Below, in pieces: positions 7,212 through 54,860 of a stretch of DNA of 64,000 nt; the stretch's first letter is position 1, and the number at the start of each line of letters is the position of its first letter. The translations under genes and the position numbers were made by a program. The notes beneath the pieces were generated by a model that ran no database searches, was not told the DNA's origin, and saw nothing but the letters and a program-made list of their open reading frames with translations. Location: assembly GCA_030062745.1 (NCBI GenBank), contig CP099845.1:21970556-22034555 (forward strand), given 5' to 3'. Source of the stretch: Capitulum mitella (lineage: Eukaryota; Arthropoda; Thecostraca; Pollicipedomorpha; Pollicipedidae).

Positions 7212-7575
7212 AAGGTCTTGGGGTAATCCTTTAGAAGCGCACGCCATAAACCAAGCACACTGAATGACACACATACGGCGTGCCTGGCAAAAGGAGACGT
7301 CAGCTGTTGCAAGAAACAACAACATTATGCACTGGAGCTCCAGGGTCGTGGATCACCTACTATTTGCTAACCTAACGTAACCTAACCTAAACTAACCTAA
7401 CCTGCTGTGTAAAACAAGAGCGAATAGTAGGTGATCTACGACCTTGGAGCTCCAGTGCATAATGTTGTTTCTTGCAACAGCTGACGTCTCCTTTTGCCAC
7501 GCGCGCCGTATATGTGTCATCCAGTGTGCTTGGTTTAGGGCGTGCACTTCTAAAGGATTGCCAGGTCTTGGTTTC
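7212..7575. mobile_element. Foldback (long inverted repeat) element with CCTAA-rich loop
   Basis: Two arms of about 155 bp (about 7212-7368 and 7420-7575) are reverse complements with scattered mismatches. Landmarks are GGAGCTCCAGTGCATAATG on the right and its complement on the left. The 50-bp loop (about 7369-7419) is made of CCTAA/CTAACCTAA units, the arthropod telomere motif. There is no coding capacity; short open frames appear on both strands only because the arms mirror each other. Confidence 0.85.
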
Positions 7576-24280: not shown

Positions 24281-25551
24281 ATGAAGTTGGTACGTCGGAC
24301 GCGCTCGGCGGCGGCAGGCCTCTGGTCTGGAAAACGGGCTTAATTGGTCCACCTCACCGCGGCAGCATGCGTGGCTTTCTTGTCTGAGAAAGTGGCACGT
24401 TAACTCCGCCGGAATGACTTCTCGAGTCATTTTGAACTCATGCTCGGTCGTCGGGCAGGGGCGTTCTTTTCGCGGGCGGATATCGTTCAATCAACTTGGT
24501 TGTCTCGACTCTGAAAGACGCCCACTGCCACCGCTCGCCTCGTGGTCGACAATGTCCGAACGTATTGCCCTCCACCTCTGCTTCCCCAGCTGATCGTGGC
24601 CTGTCTCGCTGCGCTGGCGGCCGCCGACGGCTCGGCCCCAGACGACGCGCACCAGCCGCCGGCCGAGCACGCCGGCACCGCCCGCCCGGCCGGCCACGCC
24701 GTCCGCCCGGCCGCCCACTACGCCATCGTCAGCCAGGAGCACGTGCAGCCCGGCGACGGCAGCTTCCAGTCGAGCTTCCAGACCGAGAACGGCATCTACC
24801 GCGCCGACAGCGGCAGCCCGACGGGCGGCCGCGGCGAGTCCGAGTATGGGCCGGCCGGCGGCTACGTCCACCAGGGCAGCTGGAGCTACACCGACGACTA
24901 CGGCCAGCCGGTCAAGGTCGACTTCGTGGCCGACGAGAACGGCTACCGGCCCAACAGCGACATCCTGCCGACCCCCGTGCCGACCCAGTACCCGCTGCCG
25001 GTGGTGCCGCAGGTGTACCAGGGCGAACAGAGCTACGGCCCCGCTCCGGCCAGTTACAAGGCCCCTGCTCCTGCCAGCTACAAGGCTTCTGCCCCTGCCA
25101 GCTACAAGGCCCCTGCCCCTGCCAGTTACAAGGCCCCTGCCCCTGCCAGTTACGAGGTTTCTGGCCCTGCCAGTCACAAGGCCCCTGCCCCTGCCAGTTA
25201 CAGGGCCCCTGCATACAAGGCCAACCTGCCAGTTACGAGGCTCCTGCCCCTGCCAGCTACGAGGCTCCTGTCCCTGCCAGCTACAAGGCTACCGTCTCCA
25301 GGAGGCATCGGGGTCCTGTCCGTGCCAATTACAGGGCTGCCGCTACTGCGAGCTACCAGGCTCCTGCTCCTGCCCCCAAGAGGCACCAGGCCCCTGCTCC
25401 TGCCAGCTATAAGGCTCCTGTGGCCGCTTCCCGTGGCTACGATGCTCCTGTTGCTGCTGCAGATGCCCAGGTTGCTGACAGCTACGGTGCTCCCGAGGAA
25501 GCGCGTGTTTCTGACAGCTATGGCGCTCCGAAAGGTCGTCGCTACAACTGA
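24281..25551 (+). CDS. RR-type cuticular protein with APAPASYK repeats (frameshift in repeat region)
   Basis: Secreted structural protein that would bind chitin in the exoskeleton. Exon 1 (24281-24289) encodes only MKL, then a 300-bp intron (24290-24589, GT...CCCCAG), the classic cuticle-gene layout. Exon 2 (24590-25551) completes the signal peptide MKLLIVACLAALAAADG. Residues about 58-131 form a Rebers-Riddiford domain closest to the RR-1 type, with GSWSYTDDYGQPVKVDF and ADENGYRPNSDILPTP. From about residue 154 the chain is an 8-residue repeat, APAPASYK, encoded by a 24-bp tandem unit. At about 25213-25232 the repeat slips by one frame. Beyond it the PASYEAP repeat continues in another frame to the natural end SYGAPKGRRYN and stop 25551. 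This is either an assembly indel or a real frameshift. Without the shift, the original frame runs on to 25624 as an unlikely Leu-rich tail. Confidence 0.88.
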
Positions 25552-25619
25552 CAGGACGACGTGTTTGCGACGTCGGCAGTGGCTGCCTCGTGCTTATTGT
25601 ATCTATGATGGTGTGAGTG

Positions 25620-25625
25620 AATAAA
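25620..25625 (+). terminator. Poly(A) signal of the cuticle protein gene
   Basis: AATAAA lies 69 bp after the stop codon at 25551. Confidence 0.75.
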
Positions 25626-25639
25626 GGCAAATACCTGCA

Positions 25640-27450
25640 GCTGTGATGAGAAGCGTGGAATACAGCATGGCGATTTTAATTAGAATCGAGCACGTCGAAC
25701 TCATTCCAGAACAATGGTAAAACGCGGTGTAACTGAGGAGCGCGGAAAAAGCTTAACATGCCAGCGTGAAGCGCATGCGGAAGAAACAGAGATGAACTCG
25801 GTCACGTAACCATATATTTTGATAAGAAAGAGGTTTTGAGGCACTAATATCTGAAGCTAATACTAAATGGCTAAGCCTTGGTTATGTACTTCGATTCAGA
25901 AAAACCACGGCTGAAAATTAAAAGGACGTGAGTTTCTTGCGTTAAGGCACTAGATTTTTCAGATAGGTACTTACTGCTCCCTATAATTATGGAGGGCATC
26001 TTGAGCGGAGACATACACATTACTCATCTTGGACAAACAAACAAAAAAAAACGCAAAAAACCTGCGGTGAAAATGCGACAAATAACCTGTGCGTCTACAT
26101 GAAGTAACTTCAGTAGCAGGCGTATTTGGTGCTTCAGCATCACAGCACAGTTAGCGCACGTACTTGCAGGCCACCACCGCAAACGTAACAGGGCAATTAT
26201 CAGACGCCAATGACTGGCCGTTACCACATCATGCGATTATCCCTCGCCGGATGTGAGGATGTTCACCCACGCTCTGGACAGGACGTGGTTACCACCCCAT
26301 TCCCGTGACGCTCCCAATGGAGACAGCACGATGCGATAAAAACGAGCGTGTAGCACACTTCTTCCCCATTGGAATGTCACCCATATTGGCTCTTCCAGTT
26401 CAAACAGTGACCTCTTAGATTACTGCGAAACACGATGTCACGGTAGTTCGCCGTTTCCGCTTCATCACAATTGTACAGTAAAACGGACTTCAAACCACAT
26501 ATTTTTTTAGCGAATTGGTCTTAGAACCCATCTATCGCTGTTGCCGAGGGCTGTTTCGTTCTTCGGGTCAAGGTCATGTCATTGGAAAGTCTAACATCGT
26601 TGTCATCTTCTATGACGCTGCTAGTGCCCCCAAAAATCATGCTCTGTGACCACAGACTAATTTTGATTACCAATAAGGGTAAAAATACTTGGCGCTACTG
26701 AAAGCAGCGTCACAAATTACCCTCAGACCGCCTCAACCCGGCACCGCCCGACGTGCTTTCGTACCCGCGACCGCCTGGGGATGTCAAAAAGTAAACCTCC
26801 TGTTATCTCAGGATCTGACCGTCAGATCTGAACTGGTCTGCCACCAATCGATAGCATAGCTCTGAGTCGTAAGATTCAGCAAATACTACGTTAGCCCTGG
26901 CCACGTGACTGATGACGCCACAGGTCACGTAAAATGCATAATACGTCAGAAAAACTGACATCGGTTTATACATCATATCATCAGCAATACTGATCTTAGA
27001 GCCTTCAACTGGATATCAAACAAAAGGTCACGATTTTCTGTATCAGAAGCATGCAAAAATGTCAAAAAATGTCCAGTCAAGGTCAACCTAGGTCAGATGA
27101 AATACTGGTCTTACCTTATATGCCAAAGATCGACACTTACTCGCAGCCGCTTTGATACACGTAACAAAAAGGACGGATGTGAAACCTTCTGATGAAAAGT
27201 TCTGCATTGCCGGCTTTTCATCCAGTCAAGGTTAGTCTAGGTCCGATCAGATAAGGCTGCATTACTCTTCCTGTCGAAGAGCAATAGTTACTCGCTGGGA
27301 TTCTTAACTGCGTCTCGTACAGAACTGCAATGACATCTCGTGATAATTAAATCCGCGCCGTCTGTTCTTTACCGGGTCAAGGTCAAGCCAGGTCTGAACA
27401 AATAGCCATTTTTCTTTTTCCGACTAGCAGCAATAATTGTCGTCTGCTGC
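25640..27450. other. Intergenic DNA, probably an old transposon, with repeated TCAAGGTCA-type motifs
   Basis: No coding signal. From about 26560 the motif TCAAGGTCA or a close variant recurs (about 26567, 27077, 27230 and 27378). Three of the sites are spaced about 150 bp and followed by CTAGGTC or CCAGGTC. This resembles the AGGTCA-rich elements at 53.6 and 58.4 kb, but I cannot define ends. Confidence 0.4.
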
Positions 27451-27556
27451 TGCTGGACTACCTTTCACAGACAAAGTTTCTTCCCTTCCGTTTTGACATC
27501 TGTGACGTAACTTGACATGACCTCACGTTGCGTTTGGTGAACAGTGCTAAGAGACG

Positions 27557-27557
27557 C

Positions 27558-27601
<44 letters not shown>

Positions 27602-27606
27602 ATATA
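27557..27606. repeat. (TA)n microsatellite
   Basis: An uninterrupted TA tract followed by TATGTATGTGTATATA. Confidence 0.95.
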
Positions 27607-27703
27607 CTATCGTCTGGCGAAGGTTAACGTGATCGGAACTAAGAGGAGCAGAAACGGGGGTCGCGGCCCTCCGTCTCAACTTCAAGAGAACGTTCTTCGT
27701 CGA

Positions 27704-27709
27704 TTTAAT
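27704..27709 (-). terminator. Possible poly(A) signal of the Mab-21-like gene
   Basis: ATTAAA on the minus strand, about 25 bp after the stop codon at 27734. It is a common variant signal; its closeness to the stop makes it plausible but not certain. Confidence 0.35.
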
Positions 27710-27733
27710 CCGGATGTTTCGCTCAAACGATAG

Positions 27734-29662
27734 CTAGTAAGACAGGCGGGCCAGCCTGACCGTCTGCTGGCGCGTCACCAACTGACCCCCGGCCGGAAGT
27801 CCAGCGTCGAAGCGATTCCACCCCGCCTTGTCGGGCGGACCGGCGCTCTGACCAGCTGCCCCACCGACCACGGCCAGCTGCCGGTCACAGGCCAGTCGGC
27901 CGGCGGAACGGGCGCCAGTCGTCATCTCGGGGCGAGGTCGACCGAAATGCCGCAGCCGCGGGAACCGTATCCGCCGAAGCCATCGGATCCCGACCGGCCA
28001 GCGCTTGGCGGGAGCGGCGGCGGCGGCAGAGGTGGTAGCGGGAGCCGCTGCGGTCGTGGCGTCGGCGGCGTCGGTGGCGTCGGTAATGACGGCGGCGTCG
28101 GTGGCGTCGGCGGTGCTGGTAGCGGCTGCGTCGATGGAGCTGGTGGCAGCGGCGGAGGGGGCAGCCACGTTGTCCGTGTTGGGGGTCGCGGCAGCGGAGG
28201 CGGCGGCGGCGGCGGCGGCGGCGGCGGGGAACGGCCGCACGACCGGAGACGGCCACATCCCGGTCAGAAGATTCTCCAGCGCGTTGGGCAGGAGGCAGCG
28301 CAGCGCGGCCACGTGCCGGGCGAGCTGCGCCAGCCTGGCTGGGCTCGGCTCGCGCAGCACGTTCAGCGGCGGCCACAGGAAGCAGTCGAGCCGGCCGCCC
28401 GCCACGCCGGCCTCCAGCATGTCCAGCACGGCCATCAGCGAGTCCAGCGTGTCGTCCCAGACGGCCGGCGCGCGCCGCTCGCACAGCCAGAACACGCTCG
28501 TCTTGAGCAGGTACGAGCTGACCAGCTCGACGGCTGGGCCGCAGCCGCGCCGCACCAGCTTCAGCAGCATCAGACAGAAGCGCGGCCGCGGCGGCAGCGC
28601 GCGCGCCAGCAGCGCCTCCGGCCGCGAGAACGAGAGCCGCCACAGCTGCCGGTCGGCCAGCAGCGGGCCCACGGCCACCAGGTGCACGCGGCCGGCCAGG
28701 CTCGCCAGCAGCGGCGGCGGTGGCCAGCCGGCCGGCCGCCGCCGCCGGCGCAGCGCGGCCAGCCAGCCGTCGAAGGCCGCCAGCCGCAGGCAGGCCACGT
28801 AGTCCTCGGGCGGGCGGCCGTCGCGGCCGGGCCGGGTCACGGCCGGCCCACTGACCGCCGCCGGCTCGCCGCCCAGCCGGCCGACAGCGGCCGCCAGCGC
28901 CAAGCGCGCGCGCTCGGCGGCCAGCGGCAGCGGCGCGCCGTGGCGGCACAGCGCCGAGCGGCGACGCAGCACGAGGAAGTAGCCGGCGTGTTCCGGGCTC
29001 TGCACGGCCAGCAGCTCGCCGGCCGGCCCGGCGCCGGAGTCCGCGCGCGCCACCGCCGTGGCCGTGCCCAGTTCCAGCATGTAGTCGCTGTCGGAGCGCA
29101 GCTCGTACTTCATCGCGTGCACCGTGATCCAGGCGAAGCGGTCGGCGACGCTGCCCGATATCTCGGCGTCGCGCACGTGCAGGCGGACGTCGCAGTGCGC
29201 GCAGTCGACGGCCGCGCTCTCGACGTTCAGCCGGCTCAGCTCGCCGTTTAGCTCGTTGCGGATGGCCGGACAGCGCCATTGCTGCTCGCGCACCAGATGC
29301 GGAGGCAGCAATTCGCCCGCGCCGGCTGACGCCGCCGGCGCGTACAGACGCTCGCAGAGCCAGCGCAGCTTGGCGACGCTCGGTGGCCGCAGCGGACGGT
29401 GTTCCTGCACCAAAGCAAGCCGCCAACGGATCCAGCGCGAGTAGCCCGCAGACCGTCCGAGACGCACTACCTCGAGGTTAGTCAACTGCGGAGACTGGCT
29501 GACCTCGTACGGTGAAAGCCCTGCAGAGTTCTGTAGCTCTTCTTCGCTCACAGTCGGCGTGAAGTCCGCAGACTCGGCAGGCCGTGACTGATCGGAACAT
29601 GGCTGCAGTCCGGGCGGGACACGGCTCGGACCGTCGATGGCAGCGAGAGAGGCCGCCTCCAT
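27734..29662 (-). CDS. Mab-21 / cGAS-like receptor family protein, single exon
   Basis: Predicted nucleotidyltransferase-fold protein of the Mab-21/cGAS-like family; some members sense nucleic acid and make cyclic dinucleotides, others are developmental. Open over 642 codons from ATG 29662 (good GCGATGG context). The frame is open about 57 codons further upstream but has no ATG before the in-frame stop at 29834-29836, so a spliced 5' exon remains possible. Residues 168-171 ISGS and 190-196 SDSDYML fit the GS...DxD metal site, and EDYVACLRL at 286-294 is positioned for the third acidic residue. WRLSFSRPEALL (341-352), SSYLLKTSVFWLCE (382-395) and GRLDCFLWPPLNVL (423-436) match the Mab-21 C-terminal helical domain. 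Residues about 479-551 are Ala/Thr/Asp-rich with a polyalanine run, followed by a basic segment (553-578) and a tail outside the family core. I know of no zinc-ribbon as in cGAS here. The family call is strong; enzymatic activity is inference. Confidence 0.82.
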   Translation of the reverse strand: MEAASLAAIDGPSRVPPGLQPCSDQSRPAESADFTPTVSEEELQNSAGLSPYEVSQSPQLTNLEVVRLGRSAGYSRWIRWRLALVQEHRPLRPPSVAKLRWLCERLYAPAASAGAGELLPPHLVREQQWRCPAIRNELNGELSRLNVESAAVDCAHCDVRLHVRDAEISGSVADRFAWITVHAMKYELRSDSDYMLELGTATAVARADSGAGPAGELLAVQSPEHAGYFLVLRRRSALCRHGAPLPLAAERARLALAAAVGRLGGEPAAVSGPAVTRPGRDGRPPEDYVACLRLAAFDGWLAALRRRRRPAGWPPPPLLASLAGRVHLVAVGPLLADRQLWRLSFSRPEALLARALPPRPRFCLMLLKLVRRGCGPAVELVSSYLLKTSVFWLCERRAPAVWDDTLDSLMAVLDMLEAGVAGGRLDCFLWPPLNVLREPSPARLAQLARHVAALRCLLPNALENLLTGMWPSPVVRPFPAAAAAAAAASAAATPNTDNVAAPSAAATSSIDAAATSTADATDAAVITDATDAADATTAAAPATTSAAAAAPAKRWPVGIRWLRRIRFPRLRHFGRPRPEMTTGARSAGRLACDRQLAVVGGAAGQSAGPPDKAGWNRFDAGLPAGGQLVTRQQTVRLARLSY

Positions 29663-31590
29663 CGCCGGCGGCACCGCGTCGTCGTTCGATGGCGTTTGAC
29701 CCGCGCCCGGCTGTAGCGCCTCGGGCGGAGAAGTTCCGAGACCTCTCTGAACCCCGCTGCTCGGCGCCGTTTGTTCTGTCCTCTGTCTGGCGTTGCTGTC
29801 AAGTATCGGCACTCGACGCTCGCTTTCGGCTGGCTAATCCATGCCCTGTGGCAGTGGCATCAGCTTCAGTCTGTGGTCTGAACGATGTGGTCATCGCGTT
29901 CGAATCGGTCGAAGAACATACACGCGACCACCACAGTCCAATGCCCGACACCGAGACCGAAAAAAACAGCAAATGTGAAAAACAAAGGCAACGTCACATA
30001 GCTCAAGGTCTCGCGCATTTAGCAGTGCGATTCGCGGCTAAGTGTCTGTCGAAGGTCGAGCCGAGCGGACGCCGGTCGAGGCGCGGACAAAACGTTCGAA
30101 CTGGCGGCGATCCAGGCGCACCATGGCAGGCACGGCGACGCCATGTTTCGTGGACTGAGTACGCTGCCGGGCACACCACCAACACTTTCAGGCTCCAGGT
30201 GGCGGCAAAGATGCCTGGTCTTGTCTGTCGACTGCTAATAAATACGGACTAAAGTATACCAATAAAAAATCACTAGAAATGATGGCCAATATTATGGCAT
30301 ACGAAGGCTTCACACGAGAAACTGAAAAGTTCCTTTTGTTTTAGATGGCCCACAAAAATGCCATGTGGGGATAAGGACTTTGATAACCAGACATATGCAA
30401 GGTTTATGGCATACGGCGTCATATACTGTCCCGCGACGGACTCGGTTGTACAGCTCCGCATCAGCCAGGCCAAGAAGGCAAGGCTTTTTCAACTGTTCGG
30501 CACAAATAATATTTACTATTTCCATGCTATTGTCGCGCAATGCAACATCACGGAGACTGTGCTAAATTCTTCAACATTGGTAGGGACGTCGCGTAACTGG
30601 TCCGCGGACCGCTACGCCCATGTTTTGACGCGCTCGAATCTGTCACCGGTGGCCTCACGGTTCGTTGGTACAGCGAATCATCGGCTTCCTTTGCCCTCGT
30701 TCATCTGGCTCTTGCCTTTACGCATTGGGCTCGTAAGACAAGCAGCTGATTCTAAGGATGATCTGTACTGTGCCACACGACAGGGGGTAACTCTGCACAT
30801 CTTTGGTATGAAGTTTTCCATGCCAAAGGAAATTATTGGTATGGAATTCCAAACCAATATCCTGAACCATAAAGAACTATAAGACCATTACATATGCCAC
30901 ATTTAGGGTTCAAAAAATATTTTTCTGCGCCAAAATTTAGCCCAGTTGAATTTACCTGCAATTTCGGCCCATACCAAAACGAGACCCATGACACACGGTC
31001 AACGAACATAAAAGGGAAGCGACGAAGTGGAAAGGCATGTTGAGAAATTCAGGTAGTCCAAACCCGAGACCCTCAATTCACAGCGAACAGATCACCCGGC
31101 GACCACACATCGCGTACACCTCCACTCATTGTTCACGTGGCGAATTACAAAATGACGGCAAAAAATCCACTTCATCTTCACTGGGCATATTCCGTCAGCA
31201 TTTAAACATGACCCGGATTTTTAGGATCTGCGCTAGTTTCAAGAACAGGCACGGACGCACCAAATGCACTTACGTGTGTTGCTCTGAATGCATCTCTACG
31301 AAACCGACACGGAATTTAAGGCAACTCTCACCTCTAAGCATGACTGGCGATCCCGTGAGGGCTGGACGGGGTCCGGATCCTCCCAATATTCAGGGATTTC
31401 ATCATTATGCCTATGGCAATGTTTGGAAAGAGGCCGACTGAAATCCAACGTGGACTCCCGACCCCAATAATTTTCGGAAATCTCCGGCCATGCCTCCAGG
31501 CACTGACGATCCACAGACCAGCGAGGTGAAACAATGGGACGGAGGTCAGGAGTGCGAGAAAAGAGCGCCAGGCTACACGCCACGTCCCCT
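29663..31590. other. Intergenic DNA upstream of the Mab-21-like gene
   Basis: The GC-rich part (to about 30200) should hold the minus-strand gene's promoter and any 5' exon. Beyond it composition is ordinary. A 174-codon plus-strand frame at 30358-30882 resembles nothing I know. Confidence 0.35.
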
Positions 31591-31850
31591 GCCGCTACCC
31601 GCCGGAGCAGCTGTTCCGCACTGCACTGACCCTGTCGCTACCCGCCGGAGCAGCTGTTCCGCACTGGGCTGACCCTGCCGCCACCCGCCGGAGCAGCTGT
31701 TCCGCACTGCACTGACCCTGTCGCTACCCGCCAGAGCAGCTGTTCCGCGCTGGACTGACCCTGTCGCTACCCGCCGGAGCAGCTGTTCCGCACTGGGCTG
31801 ACCCTGCCGCCACCCGCCGGGGCAGCGTTCCGCGCTGCACTGGCCGCTCA
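31591..31850. repeat. 43-bp minisatellite, six copies
   Basis: Units begin at 31591, 31634, 31677, 31720, 31763 and 31806, the last partial. Each carries CCCGCCGGAGCAGCTGTTCC, including a CAGCTG E-box core. The period is exactly 43 bp, so it is not a coding repeat. Confidence 0.92.
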
Positions 31851-34038: not shown

Positions 34039-34750
34039 TAATCACAACACTAATACTAATAATAATACAACTGAAAATATTAGGAATATGAAAAAGTGAA
34101 GTTGCAATTTGAAAAGAGCATAAGGAAAATAATTAAAAAGCAGTGAAATGAAATATCTGAAAAGGAAATTACGGAACAAAACTTGAAAATATTAGCAAGC
34201 GAAATAAAACAATAAACGAAAATTTACCCTACCCGAACATAGTAACCTAACCTAACCTAACCTAACCTAACCTTACCTAATCTAGCCCAGCATAACCCAA
34301 TCTAGCAACCTAATGTAATCTAACGACTATTAAATGTCATAATGTAATAATACTGACATCAGATATCCCAAGAATTATCTAATACAATAATATAACGACG
34401 CAATAATTCAGTAGTTCCTCCAAGTTCAATTTGTGGCAACAGACTACAATTTTCCTACATATGACGTCATTAATCGCTTGAAGATGTATGCATGGTCTAC
34501 ACATCCTTGATGTCAATAACCTTAACTTTGGGGACACTACATTTTCCGTCGCGGAATAATGTTCTCTGTCAGCCGACTCCAGCACGGTAGTACTGTCTCG
34601 TACGTTATCGTTACAATTTTGTTGTTAGTTTTGAGAAATTCAACTGGTGGAAAGTATGATGACGAACAAGATGATACATTTTTTACATTAGTGGAAATCA
34701 CACAAAGGATTGTTCGCGATTTTGTCGGGCAGAAACTTACCTTTAGCTGA
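33659..34750 (+). mobile_element. TTAGG-bearing element, copy A (about 1.09 kb)
   Basis: Reverse-complement copy of 53792-55248. Shared landmarks are TTTGACCGAGCGCTTAC at one end, CTTACCT with TCTGCCCGAC at the other, an (AAT)n tract (33963-34040) and a CCTAACCTAA tract (about 34243-34276). Weak terminal inversions are GGTCARCAGTAAG and GCTGAAGGTAAG. No open frame of note. Confidence 0.8.
33963..34040. repeat. (AAT)n microsatellite
   Basis: A long run of AAT triplets inside the TTAGG-bearing element. Copy B has a shorter run in the inverse sense at about 54865-54895. Confidence 0.95.
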
Positions 34751-38017: not shown

Positions 38018-39223
38018 TTAACCCTATTCCCGGAGGGCTAGACGGTATGGTCGATTCGCGGCAGGGGGCGGATTCGGCCCCCCCTGAGATCTCGAGAACC
38101 ACTCGTCCGATTTTGTCGCAACAAACGGCAATCGATTTGCCGTGACGTGAACTACATTTTCACAGAAAATTTTTTCAAAATTTTGAGATTTGTGGATACA
38201 GGGGGCAAAATGTCAAATGGGGGGTACTTTTGGACTTCTTATAACTCCGTTGTTTATCGACCGATTTCGATGAAACTGGCATGAACCGAGAGATTATGGA
38301 TAGGGCTTTTACCATGGGTCCGCAAATCTGGAATTTTGAGAAAATTCATGGGCGTTCACAGGGTTTTAAAAATAGGAGGATTAGTTTTCTAACAAATGAG
38401 TGAGCAAAAGACGCAAACACCCTTTTTTGTCTTCTGCTAGTCATGCTATACTAAAGAAGTACAAATCGCATTACAGTGTTTGTATAACGTTGGCATAGGC
38501 GGTGCCAGGGACATGAAAAAGGGGGAACTGTCATGGTCACACGTTTCTCAGATCAACTTGTGACCTTTGACCTTAAATGACCTCCAGTGACCTTGGGGTC
38601 ACTTGGAATGATCTCGTGTGCATTTAATGTTATCTGTAAACGTTTTCAGTCATTTGGATTCACTCTATTTCAAAAATTTCATTTTATGGCTATTGCGATA
38701 TAGGGTACGCGCACTGACGTTTTAGGTCATAGCTCCGTGACCCGACCTGATATGAAGCTGAAATTTGGTGCACAAGTAGAAGGTACCCTTCTACGTCATA
38801 TGTATTCCGGGTTTGGATTTTAAAGAAACGGCGCCGAAATTATAGCGAAAAAACAAATTGTGACTTTTGACCTTGACCTGACCTTGTAAAATGACCTCAG
38901 ACGAACAAAATTACGTCTACACATTGCCCAACTATTGAGCTATACATCCATATAAAGTTTTAAGTTCTATCTTTAAAACTCTGTTTTTGGCAGACATTTT
39001 CCTTTTACCCTCAACATGACCAAAAATGGCATGAGGTGCCTCCCAAAAACGTTGCCTGGCTCCGCCCCTGAGCAAAATAGAATTTTGAAATTTTATCACG
39101 ACACGCAGAAATAATAGCTAAGAAAAGTGATCAAGTTTCGTGAAGCTGCGTTAAAAAGCCTGGAATTGGCAAGCAAAAAACCCGATGGGGGCGGATTCAG
39201 CCCCCTGCCGGGAATAGGGTTAA
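38018..39223. mobile_element. piggyBac-type non-autonomous element, copy 1
   Basis: Bounded by TTAA on both sides (38018-38021, 39220-39223), with terminal repeats CCCTATTCCCGG and CCGGGAATAGGG. Behind them lie subterminal GGGGGCGGATTCGGCCCCC-type blocks, inverted at the two ends; the left end has about 26 extra bp between the two blocks. TTAA duplication and CCC-starting ends are the piggyBac signature. The interior has no transposase and contains many TGACCT/AGGTCA motifs (38570-38610, 38865-38905). Confidence 0.92.
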
Positions 39224-46061: not shown

Positions 46062-47276
46062 TTAACCCTATTACCGGAGGGCTAGACAGTATGGTCGATT
46101 CCAGGCAGGAGGGGCGGATTCGGCCCCCCCTGAGATCTCGAGAACTACTTGTCCGATTTAATCGCAACAAACGGCAATCGATTTGCCGTGACGTGAACTA
46201 CATTTTTATAAAAAGAAATTTTCAAAATTTTGAAATTTGTGGATACAGGGGGGCAAAAATGTCAAAATGGGGGGTACTTTTGGACTTCTTATAACTCCGT
46301 TGCTTATCGACCGATTTCGATGAAACTGGCATGAATCGAGAGATTATGGATAGGGCTTTTACCATGGGCCTGCAAATCTGAAATTTTGAGAAAATTCATG
46401 GGCGTTCACAGGGTTTCAAAAATGGGAGGATTAGTTTTCTAACAACTGAATGAACAAAAGAAGCAAACACCCTTTTTTGGCTTCTGCTAGTCATGCTATA
46501 CTAAAGAAGTACAAATCGCATTACAATGTTTGTATAATGTTAGCATAGGCGGTGCCAGGGACATGAAAAAGGGGGAACTGTCATGGTCACACGTTTCTCA
46601 GATCAACTTGTGACCTTTGGCCTTAAATGACCTCCAGTGACCTTGGGGTCACTTGTAATGATCTCGTGTGCAATAAATATTGTCTGTAAACGTTTTCAAT
46701 CATTTGAATTCACTCTATTTCAAAAATTTCAGTTTATGGCTTTTGCGATATAGGGTACGCGCACTGACATTTTAGGTCATAGCTCCGTGACCCGACCTGA
46801 TATCAAGCTGAAACTTGATACACAAGTAGAGGGCACCCTTCTACGTCATATATATTCCGGGTTTGGCATTTGAAAAAAACGGCGCCGAAATTATAGCGAA
46901 AAAACAAATTGTGACTTTTGACCTTGACCTGACCTTGTAAAATGACCTCAGATAAACAAAATTATATCTACACATTGCCCAACTATTGAGCTATACATCC
47001 ATATAAAGTTTTAAGTTCTATCTTTAAAACTCTGTTTTTGGCAGACATTGTCCTTTTACCCTCAACATGACCAAAAATGGCATGAGGTGCCTCCCAAAAA
47101 CGTTGCCTGGCTCCGCCCCTGAGCAAAATAGGATTTTGAAATTTTGTCACAGCACGTAGAAAGAATAGCTAGGAAAAGTCACCAAGTTTCGTGAAGCTGC
47201 ATTAAAAAGCTTGGAATTGGCAAGCAAAAACCCAAGGGGGGGCGAATTCAGCCCCCCCTGCCGGGAATAGGGTTAA
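46062..47276. mobile_element. piggyBac-type non-autonomous element, copy 2
   Basis: Direct-orientation copy of the element at 38018-39223, matching along its whole length with scattered substitutions and small indels. TTAA flanks are at 46062-46065 and 47273-47276; ends CCCTATTACCGG and CCGGGAATAGGG. The high similarity suggests both copies inserted fairly recently. No coding capacity. Confidence 0.92.
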
Positions 47277-53791: not shown

Positions 53792-54860
53792 GGGCTGAAG
53801 GTAAGTTTCTGCCCGACGAAATCGCAAACAATCCTTTGTATAATTGCCACCAATGTAAAGAATGTATCATCCTGTTTTTAACCGTACTTTCCACTACTTG
53901 GTTTTCTAAAAAATAACGACAAAATCGTAACGATAACGTACCACACAGGAATACCGTGCTGCAGTCGACTGGCGGAGAACAGCATTATTCCGCGGCGAAA
54001 AATGTAGTGCCGTCAGGGTTAAGGTTATTGACATCAAGGATGTGTAGATCCTGCATGCATCTTCAAGCGATTAATGACGTCATGTATATGAAAATTCTAT
54101 TCTGTTGCCACAAACTGAGCTTGGAGGAACTGCTGAATTATTACGCCGTTCTATTATTGTATTAGACAATTGTTGGGATATCTAATATCAGTATTATTAC
54201 ATTATGACATTTAATACTCGTTACATTGGATTGCTAGGTTGGGTTGTGCTGGGCTAGGTTAGATAAGGTTAGGTTAGGTTAGGTTAGGTTAGGTTAGGTT
54301 TCTATGTTAGGCTAGGGTAAATTTTTATTTATCGTTTTATTTCACTTCCTGGTATTTTCCAGTTTTGTTCTGTGATTTCTTTTTCAGATATTCTATACCC
54401 TAGCCTAACATAGTAGCCTAACCTAACCTAACCTAACCTAACGTAGCCTAGCCTAGATGGCTAGGCTAGACTAAGCTAGGTTTGGTTAGGTTAGGTTAGG
54501 TTAGGTTACTGTGTTGGGCTAGGGTAAATTTTTATTTATTGTTTTATTTCACTTCCTAATATTTTCCAGTTTTGTTCCGTGATTTCTTGTGCTGGGTTAG
54601 GTTAGATAAGGTGAGGTTAGGTTAGGTTAGGTTAGGCTAGGCTAGGCTAGGCTAGGCTAGTTTAGGTTAGGTTAGGTTAGGTTTCTATGGTAGGCTAGGG
54701 CAAATTTTTATTTATTGCTTTATCTCACTTCCTGGTATTTTCCAGTTTTGTTCGGTGATTTCTTTTTCAGATATTTTATTTCACTGCTTTTTATTTTTTG
54801 TATTTTTCAAATTGCAACTTTACTTTGCCATCTTTGTAATATTTTTACTTTTTCATTATT

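Follow-up and report, generated by a model that had tools for sequence, protein, structure and literature searches.

Introduction

Animal cGAS-like receptors (cGLRs) have been delimited by sequence: the available text of Li et al. 2023 (PMC9980059) gives a strict motif, h[QT]GS[X8-20][DE]h[DE]h[X50-90]h[DE]h, and a looser curation rule consisting of a G[S/G] loop and an [E/D]h[E/D] X50-90 [E/D] triad, while excerpts of PMC10732462 name the PF03281 domain in the definition of the Mab-21/cGLR superfamily. For cGAS, the residues of the acceptor and donor pockets have been assigned (PMC4897736). Crustaceans are represented by the sole study that we found, of three shrimp Mab21 proteins, in the accessible part of which cGAMP (cyclic GMP–AMP) synthesis was undetected (PMC12928593), and the literature searched yielded no paper combining Mab-21 and barnacles. 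Here we describe P0001, an open frame in a 64,000-nucleotide stretch (the window, whose coordinates are used throughout) of contig CP099845.1 of Capitulum mitella. On balance we favour the reading that P0001 is a single-exon crustacean gene for a cGAS-like nucleotidyltransferase that works by the mechanism proposed below.

Results

P0001 runs on the minus strand from the first in-frame ATG at 29662 to 27734 (27734..29662), as 642 codons plus a stop in a single exon; the single 642-codon frame reported in an earlier note on this DNA is thus borne out, and the strand, which that note left unstated, is minus. All features of P0001 given below lie on this strand. The core of the frame goes beyond chance, because only 2 of 1000 first-order Markov sequences stayed open over an equal length, GC at the third codon position reaches 0.94 across residues 91-480, and the core is 44-46% identical to the relatives P0002-P0005. 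Third-position GC falls to 0.67 in residues 1-90. No strong splice donor lies close to where the core ends: within 29900-27400 the highest donor score was 6.0, against 7.9 for the top 1% of the strand.

The core (residues 95-470, 28253..29380) comprises a predicted nucleotidyltransferase lobe and a helical lobe. Its activation-loop motif G170-S171 (29150..29155), identified by sequence and alignment, lies within ISGSVADR; D191-S-D193 (29084..29092), conserved among paralogs, supplies putative metal ligands, and EDYV (residues 286-289, 28796..28807) contributes D287 as the third acid, which the family profile alignment pairs with the aspartate of VDIILALES in mouse cGAS. Profile alignment to cGAS also places two putative substrate-binding segments. 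Within WRLSFSRPE (residues 341-349, 28616..28642), R342, S344 and S346 are the acceptor-pocket equivalents and E349 is a donor-pocket equivalent, and within SSYLLK (residues 382-387, 28502..28519) Y384 and K387 are donor-pocket equivalents. Pfam Mab-21_C (PF20266) matches residues 363-452 (28307..28576) at E 2e-7, above its curated cut-off; 17 of 18 family members also match this model. The GS, DSD and EDYV motifs, the helical C-terminal domain and the complete-looking metal site that the earlier note had read from the letters are therefore all recovered, and the catalytic triad and substrate pocket are kept across the genome's paralogs. The catalytic site of P0001 is apparently intact.

The predicted model of the core has a cGAS-type two-lobed fold, and the structural match to the cGAS/Mab-21 fold, which the earlier note had proposed as a check, extends over both lobes. 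Both also match known cGLRs, in the manner of the AlphaFold-type comparison used in the cGLR definition. The sequence profile spans only the second half of the core. By its predicted fold and its Mab-21_C profile, P0001 belongs to the Mab-21/cGAS superfamily.

A search of the 477-Mb, 16-contig genome with P0001 returned 42 matches, namely P0001 itself and 39 further loci, three of the matches falling in a single locus; the count of 39 loci is a lower bound. In the fetched stretches, the best match at every one of the 39 loci sits in a single long open frame, 410-1098 codons in length, and hence a single exon appears to be the rule for Mab-21 genes in this genome, and no peculiarity of P0001. 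Three loci stand apart: L015 carries one internal stop and misses the GS region, the matches of L011 are split over several frames, and L027 is without its N-terminal half. With all 39 loci counted, G[SG] and the three acids are kept in 34, the others being these three, L043 (second D replaced by N) and L044 (a gap at the S). For column-wise conservation, L011, L015 and L027 were dropped and the remaining 36 loci filtered at 80% identity, leaving 21 non-redundant paralogs with a mean identity of 32%. Among these, conservation reaches 90% or more in 27 of 311 core columns, which include 11 of 12 listed functional positions (P=2.7e-12, a guide only, as paralogs are not independent and the list was drawn up after viewing the alignment). 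Of the 12 positions, 11 come from the cGAS literature and the other is S435. The one listed position outside these columns, S383, has S in 14 of the 21 paralogs and T in 6. We regard this conservation as the strongest evidence that the family has probably been kept as an enzyme.

Relatives also occur in other records. The first homolog search gave five proteins, P0002-P0006, of which P0003 is the Amphibalanus amphitrite hypothetical protein FJT64_025897 and the others are unnamed ENA proteins; searches with alignments A1 and A2, each scoring about 7995 candidates, returned the same proteins plus only a short relative, P0007. P0006 is 55% identical to P0001 over a shorter stretch of the core. 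The alignment of six proteins shows no variation at GS, D191, D193, D287 or the residues C154, C157, C239 and H241. In a 42-row tree, from which L011, L015 and L027 were left out and for which the program warned of long branches, P0006 included, P0001 and its near-identical copy L009 fall in an eight-member clade with L010 and P0002-P0006 (support 100/100). L010 groups with P0003, yet the two are only 50% identical, so that the host is likely a barnacle but probably one other than A. amphitrite.

The four cysteine and histidine residues form a signature of two halves, C154-x2-C157 (29192..29203) and C239-x-H241 (28940..28948), both drawn from the alignment. Among the 21 non-redundant paralogs, C157 is retained in 19, C239 in 18, C154 in 16 and H241 in 13, the main exception being a group of paralogs of about 1000 residues. 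Both halves lie in loops of the core model, the first at low confidence, and together they may form a metal site.

That exceptional group (L042, L044, L045, L046 and L047) is separate and deeply split, with some 500-680 residues beyond the core and mostly without the signature. In other branches the Mab-21 core is followed by a conserved extension of about 277 residues at the C terminus (L013, L014, L016, L023 and other paralogs on C16, C14, C10 and C11), which is 46-87% identical in the five pairs compared; between L013 and L016 the extension is 46% identical and the core 61%. Searches of this extension found nothing convincing in the PDB (two rows, E 0.06 and 0.09) or in Pfam (a weak DUF6166 row, E 0.009, in one of four members). 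No relation between the extension and the C-terminal tail of P0001 was seen.

The genome also contains candidate receptors for a cyclic product. STING_LBD exceeds the Pfam cut-off at four sites with five matches (L048-L052), and in none of 14 control genomes; two of these were checked by Pfam, and for one of them a comparison with solved STING structures gave a best E of 2.9e-9. A cGLR-STING axis is therefore possible in this genome, and P0001 might feed it.

Beyond residue 472 the frame changes character. An Ala/Thr/Asp-rich part (residues 473-551, 28010..28246) was seen only in P0001 and its recent duplicate L009, and is followed by a basic part (residues 552-642, 27737..28009). Third-position GC is 0.87 in residues 473-557 and 0.76 in 552-642. 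With core residues as the training set, a codon score is +0.26 for the core but -0.16 and -0.21 for the two parts of the tail; in the tail, a frame on the reverse strand does better. The open frame is itself uninformative here, because 0.174 of 2000 simulated tails stay open. The earlier note had suggested that the tail could be a family-specific addition. We reject this, as well as the idea of a family-specific domain: the full-length relatives P0002-P0005 stop 3-24 residues beyond the position of residue 466, L010, the closest paralog in the same genome, stops 10 residues beyond it, the tail is predicted to be disordered (predicted local distance difference test mostly <50), the codon bias of the core is absent, and the end is frameshifted in L009. 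Most likely the tail is read out of a 3' region that is rich in repeats, and was either gained recently or is under weak constraint; it may be translated, and a conserved function is unsupported. Right past the stop, ATTAAA (27704..27709) matches the consensus of a poly(A) signal and possibly serves as one.

L009 (C7:22042496-22044385) lies about 44 kb from P0001 and may be an uncollapsed assembly haplotype. The tails of the two differ by in-frame indels of 6 and 18 bases, by a 1-base indel near the end that alters the last residues, and by 11 substitutions (5 silent, 6 replacement). Substitutions number 4 in 1140 positions of the core and 11 in 516 of the tail (Fisher p 0.0009). We do not take this contrast as proof of constraint, since a boundary of conversion or duplication confounds it, the flanking sequence having 1 substitution in 1838 positions upstream and 70 in 1732 downstream. 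By its own substitutions and indels, the tail seems to be under weak or no constraint. The duplicated block as a whole (26002-31600, against C7:22040700-22046500 at L009) has a sharp divergence gradient, low upstream and high downstream, for which gene conversion, a duplication boundary and an assembly haplotype are the alternatives. A tandem array of six 43-base units (31587-31842) lies upstream of P0001 and recurs at the edge of L009.

Elsewhere in the window, a cuticle protein frame with Chitin_bind_4 (24515-25624, plus strand) points to an arthropod host; it contains a region of 24-base repeats in which Pro, Ala, Ser, Tyr and Lys abound. Ten other open frames have no Pfam match at E 0.01. 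Interstitial tracts of the TTAGG type (TAACC/CCTAA), the arthropod telomere motif, occur at 7367-7403, 34243-34284 and 54255-54683. Direct repeats at 38065-39108 and 46111-47159, about 8.05 kb apart and 88-95% identical, are possibly a dispersed element.

Discussion

We envision that the P0001 core would form a cGAS-type two-lobed enzyme in which ligand binding would order the GS loop, D191, D193 and D287 would coordinate a pair of metal ions, and two nucleoside triphosphates would be joined and then cyclised between the lobes, to give a cyclic product that would be read by the same animal's STING proteins. Support comes from the predicted fold, the in-register motif, the family-wide conservation of catalytic and substrate residues, and the presence of STING ligand-binding domains; catalysis, the identity of ligand and product, the immune role and the STING link are what we infer.

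Several observations weigh against this reading. As a regular expression, the strict cGLR motif in the available text of PMC9980059 matches none of the 39 paralog loci, nor P0001, which departs from it at S169 (Q or T asked) and at S192 and E286 (hydrophobic residues asked), and in which D193 and D287 are 93 residues apart, against 50-90 in the motif. Under the looser rule, P0001 has GS and all three acids, but S stands between the first two acids and the gap to the third is again 93. The departures are shared: the residue before GS is S in 33 of the 39 loci and T in 4 (unaligned in L015 and L027), and motif spacings among them are often longer than in the published pattern. The Mab-21 profile search suggested in the earlier note came out divided, PF20266 being matched and PF03281, Pfam's Mab-21 nucleotidyltransferase domain, being unmatched by P0001 alone up to E 10, although 15 of 18 members of family alignment A3 match it. 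We equate D191 and D193 with the cGAS acids by motif order and model topology, with no residue-by-residue tool alignment. The zinc-thumb insertion that follows the donor-site Glu in vertebrate cGAS is absent from the P0001 family in the profile alignment with mouse cGAS. By the letter of the published motif, then, P0001 is not a cGLR; it most likely works like one.

The departures from the strict motif also feed the leading alternative, which we consider unlikely: a non-catalytic Mab-21 protein whose fold serves for binding, the role proposed for the shrimp Mab21 proteins that bind IKK-epsilon and one that MAB21L1 may also have. Foldseek puts MAB21L1 in the top row for the full-length model and MiD51 for the core model, each by a small margin and neither being cGAS, which also counts against an enzyme; MiD51 is non-catalytic. 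A further point on that side is that the accessible text of PMC12928593 reports neither binding of double-stranded DNA or RNA nor cGAMP production for LvMab21-1 to -3, which are said to work via IKK-epsilon and to be without essential nucleotidyltransferase residues, its authors leaving other ligands and products open. Against a scaffold, the catalytic acids and substrate residues rank among the most conserved positions of the paralog family, and where MAB21L1 has Q169 at the third-acid position and misses the acceptor residues, the P0001 family has both the third acid and the acceptor residues.

We think it still less probable that a catalytic nucleotidyltransferase is used for something other than innate sensing, such as a role in development or in larval settlement, or the making of a product that is linear or unusual. 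Bacterial cyclic di-GMP is reported, in the available part of PMC11190208, to trigger mussel larval metamorphosis via a STING receptor, but a lineage-specific expansion with recent duplicates would be expected rather of an immune family. The reading of P0001 as a decaying or silent duplicate, its frame intact by recency and unexpressed or unneeded, could draw on the nearby L009 copy and on the repeat-rich, weakly constrained tail, yet is very improbable given the third-position GC of the core, its identity to P0002-P0005 and the invariant active-site residues.

A broader picture can be put forward tentatively. One crustacean lineage may carry a radiation of some 40 cGAS-like enzymes, largely without introns and for the most part with an intact catalytic site, that have a signature of their own (an SGS loop, SDxD, and a C-x2-C/C-x-H set that would be a metal site unlike the cGAS zinc thumb), some branches bearing the extension of about 277 residues. 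Joined by several STING genes, these enzymes would make up an antiviral network with multiple messengers, its members unmatched by the strict cGLR motif. The barnacle-type radiation and the Cys/His signature are the points of interest. Dozens of cGAS-like genes with strongly conserved active sites, alongside STING domains, would make crustacean cyclic-nucleotide immunity directly testable, and such a family would supply new enzymes for product discovery.

Taken together, P0001 shares SGSVAD, SDxD, the third D and the Cys/His signature with P0002-P0006, and is set apart from the full-length P0002-P0005 by its tail. In structural alignment it is 20% identical to Sp-cGLR1 (8gjy), 17% to Cv-cGLR1 (8gjw) and 16% to vertebrate cGAS, and its GS-to-DxD gap is 19 residues, compared with 11 in human cGAS. 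Proteins of this kind are already known; the novelty lies in their lineage-specific radiation.
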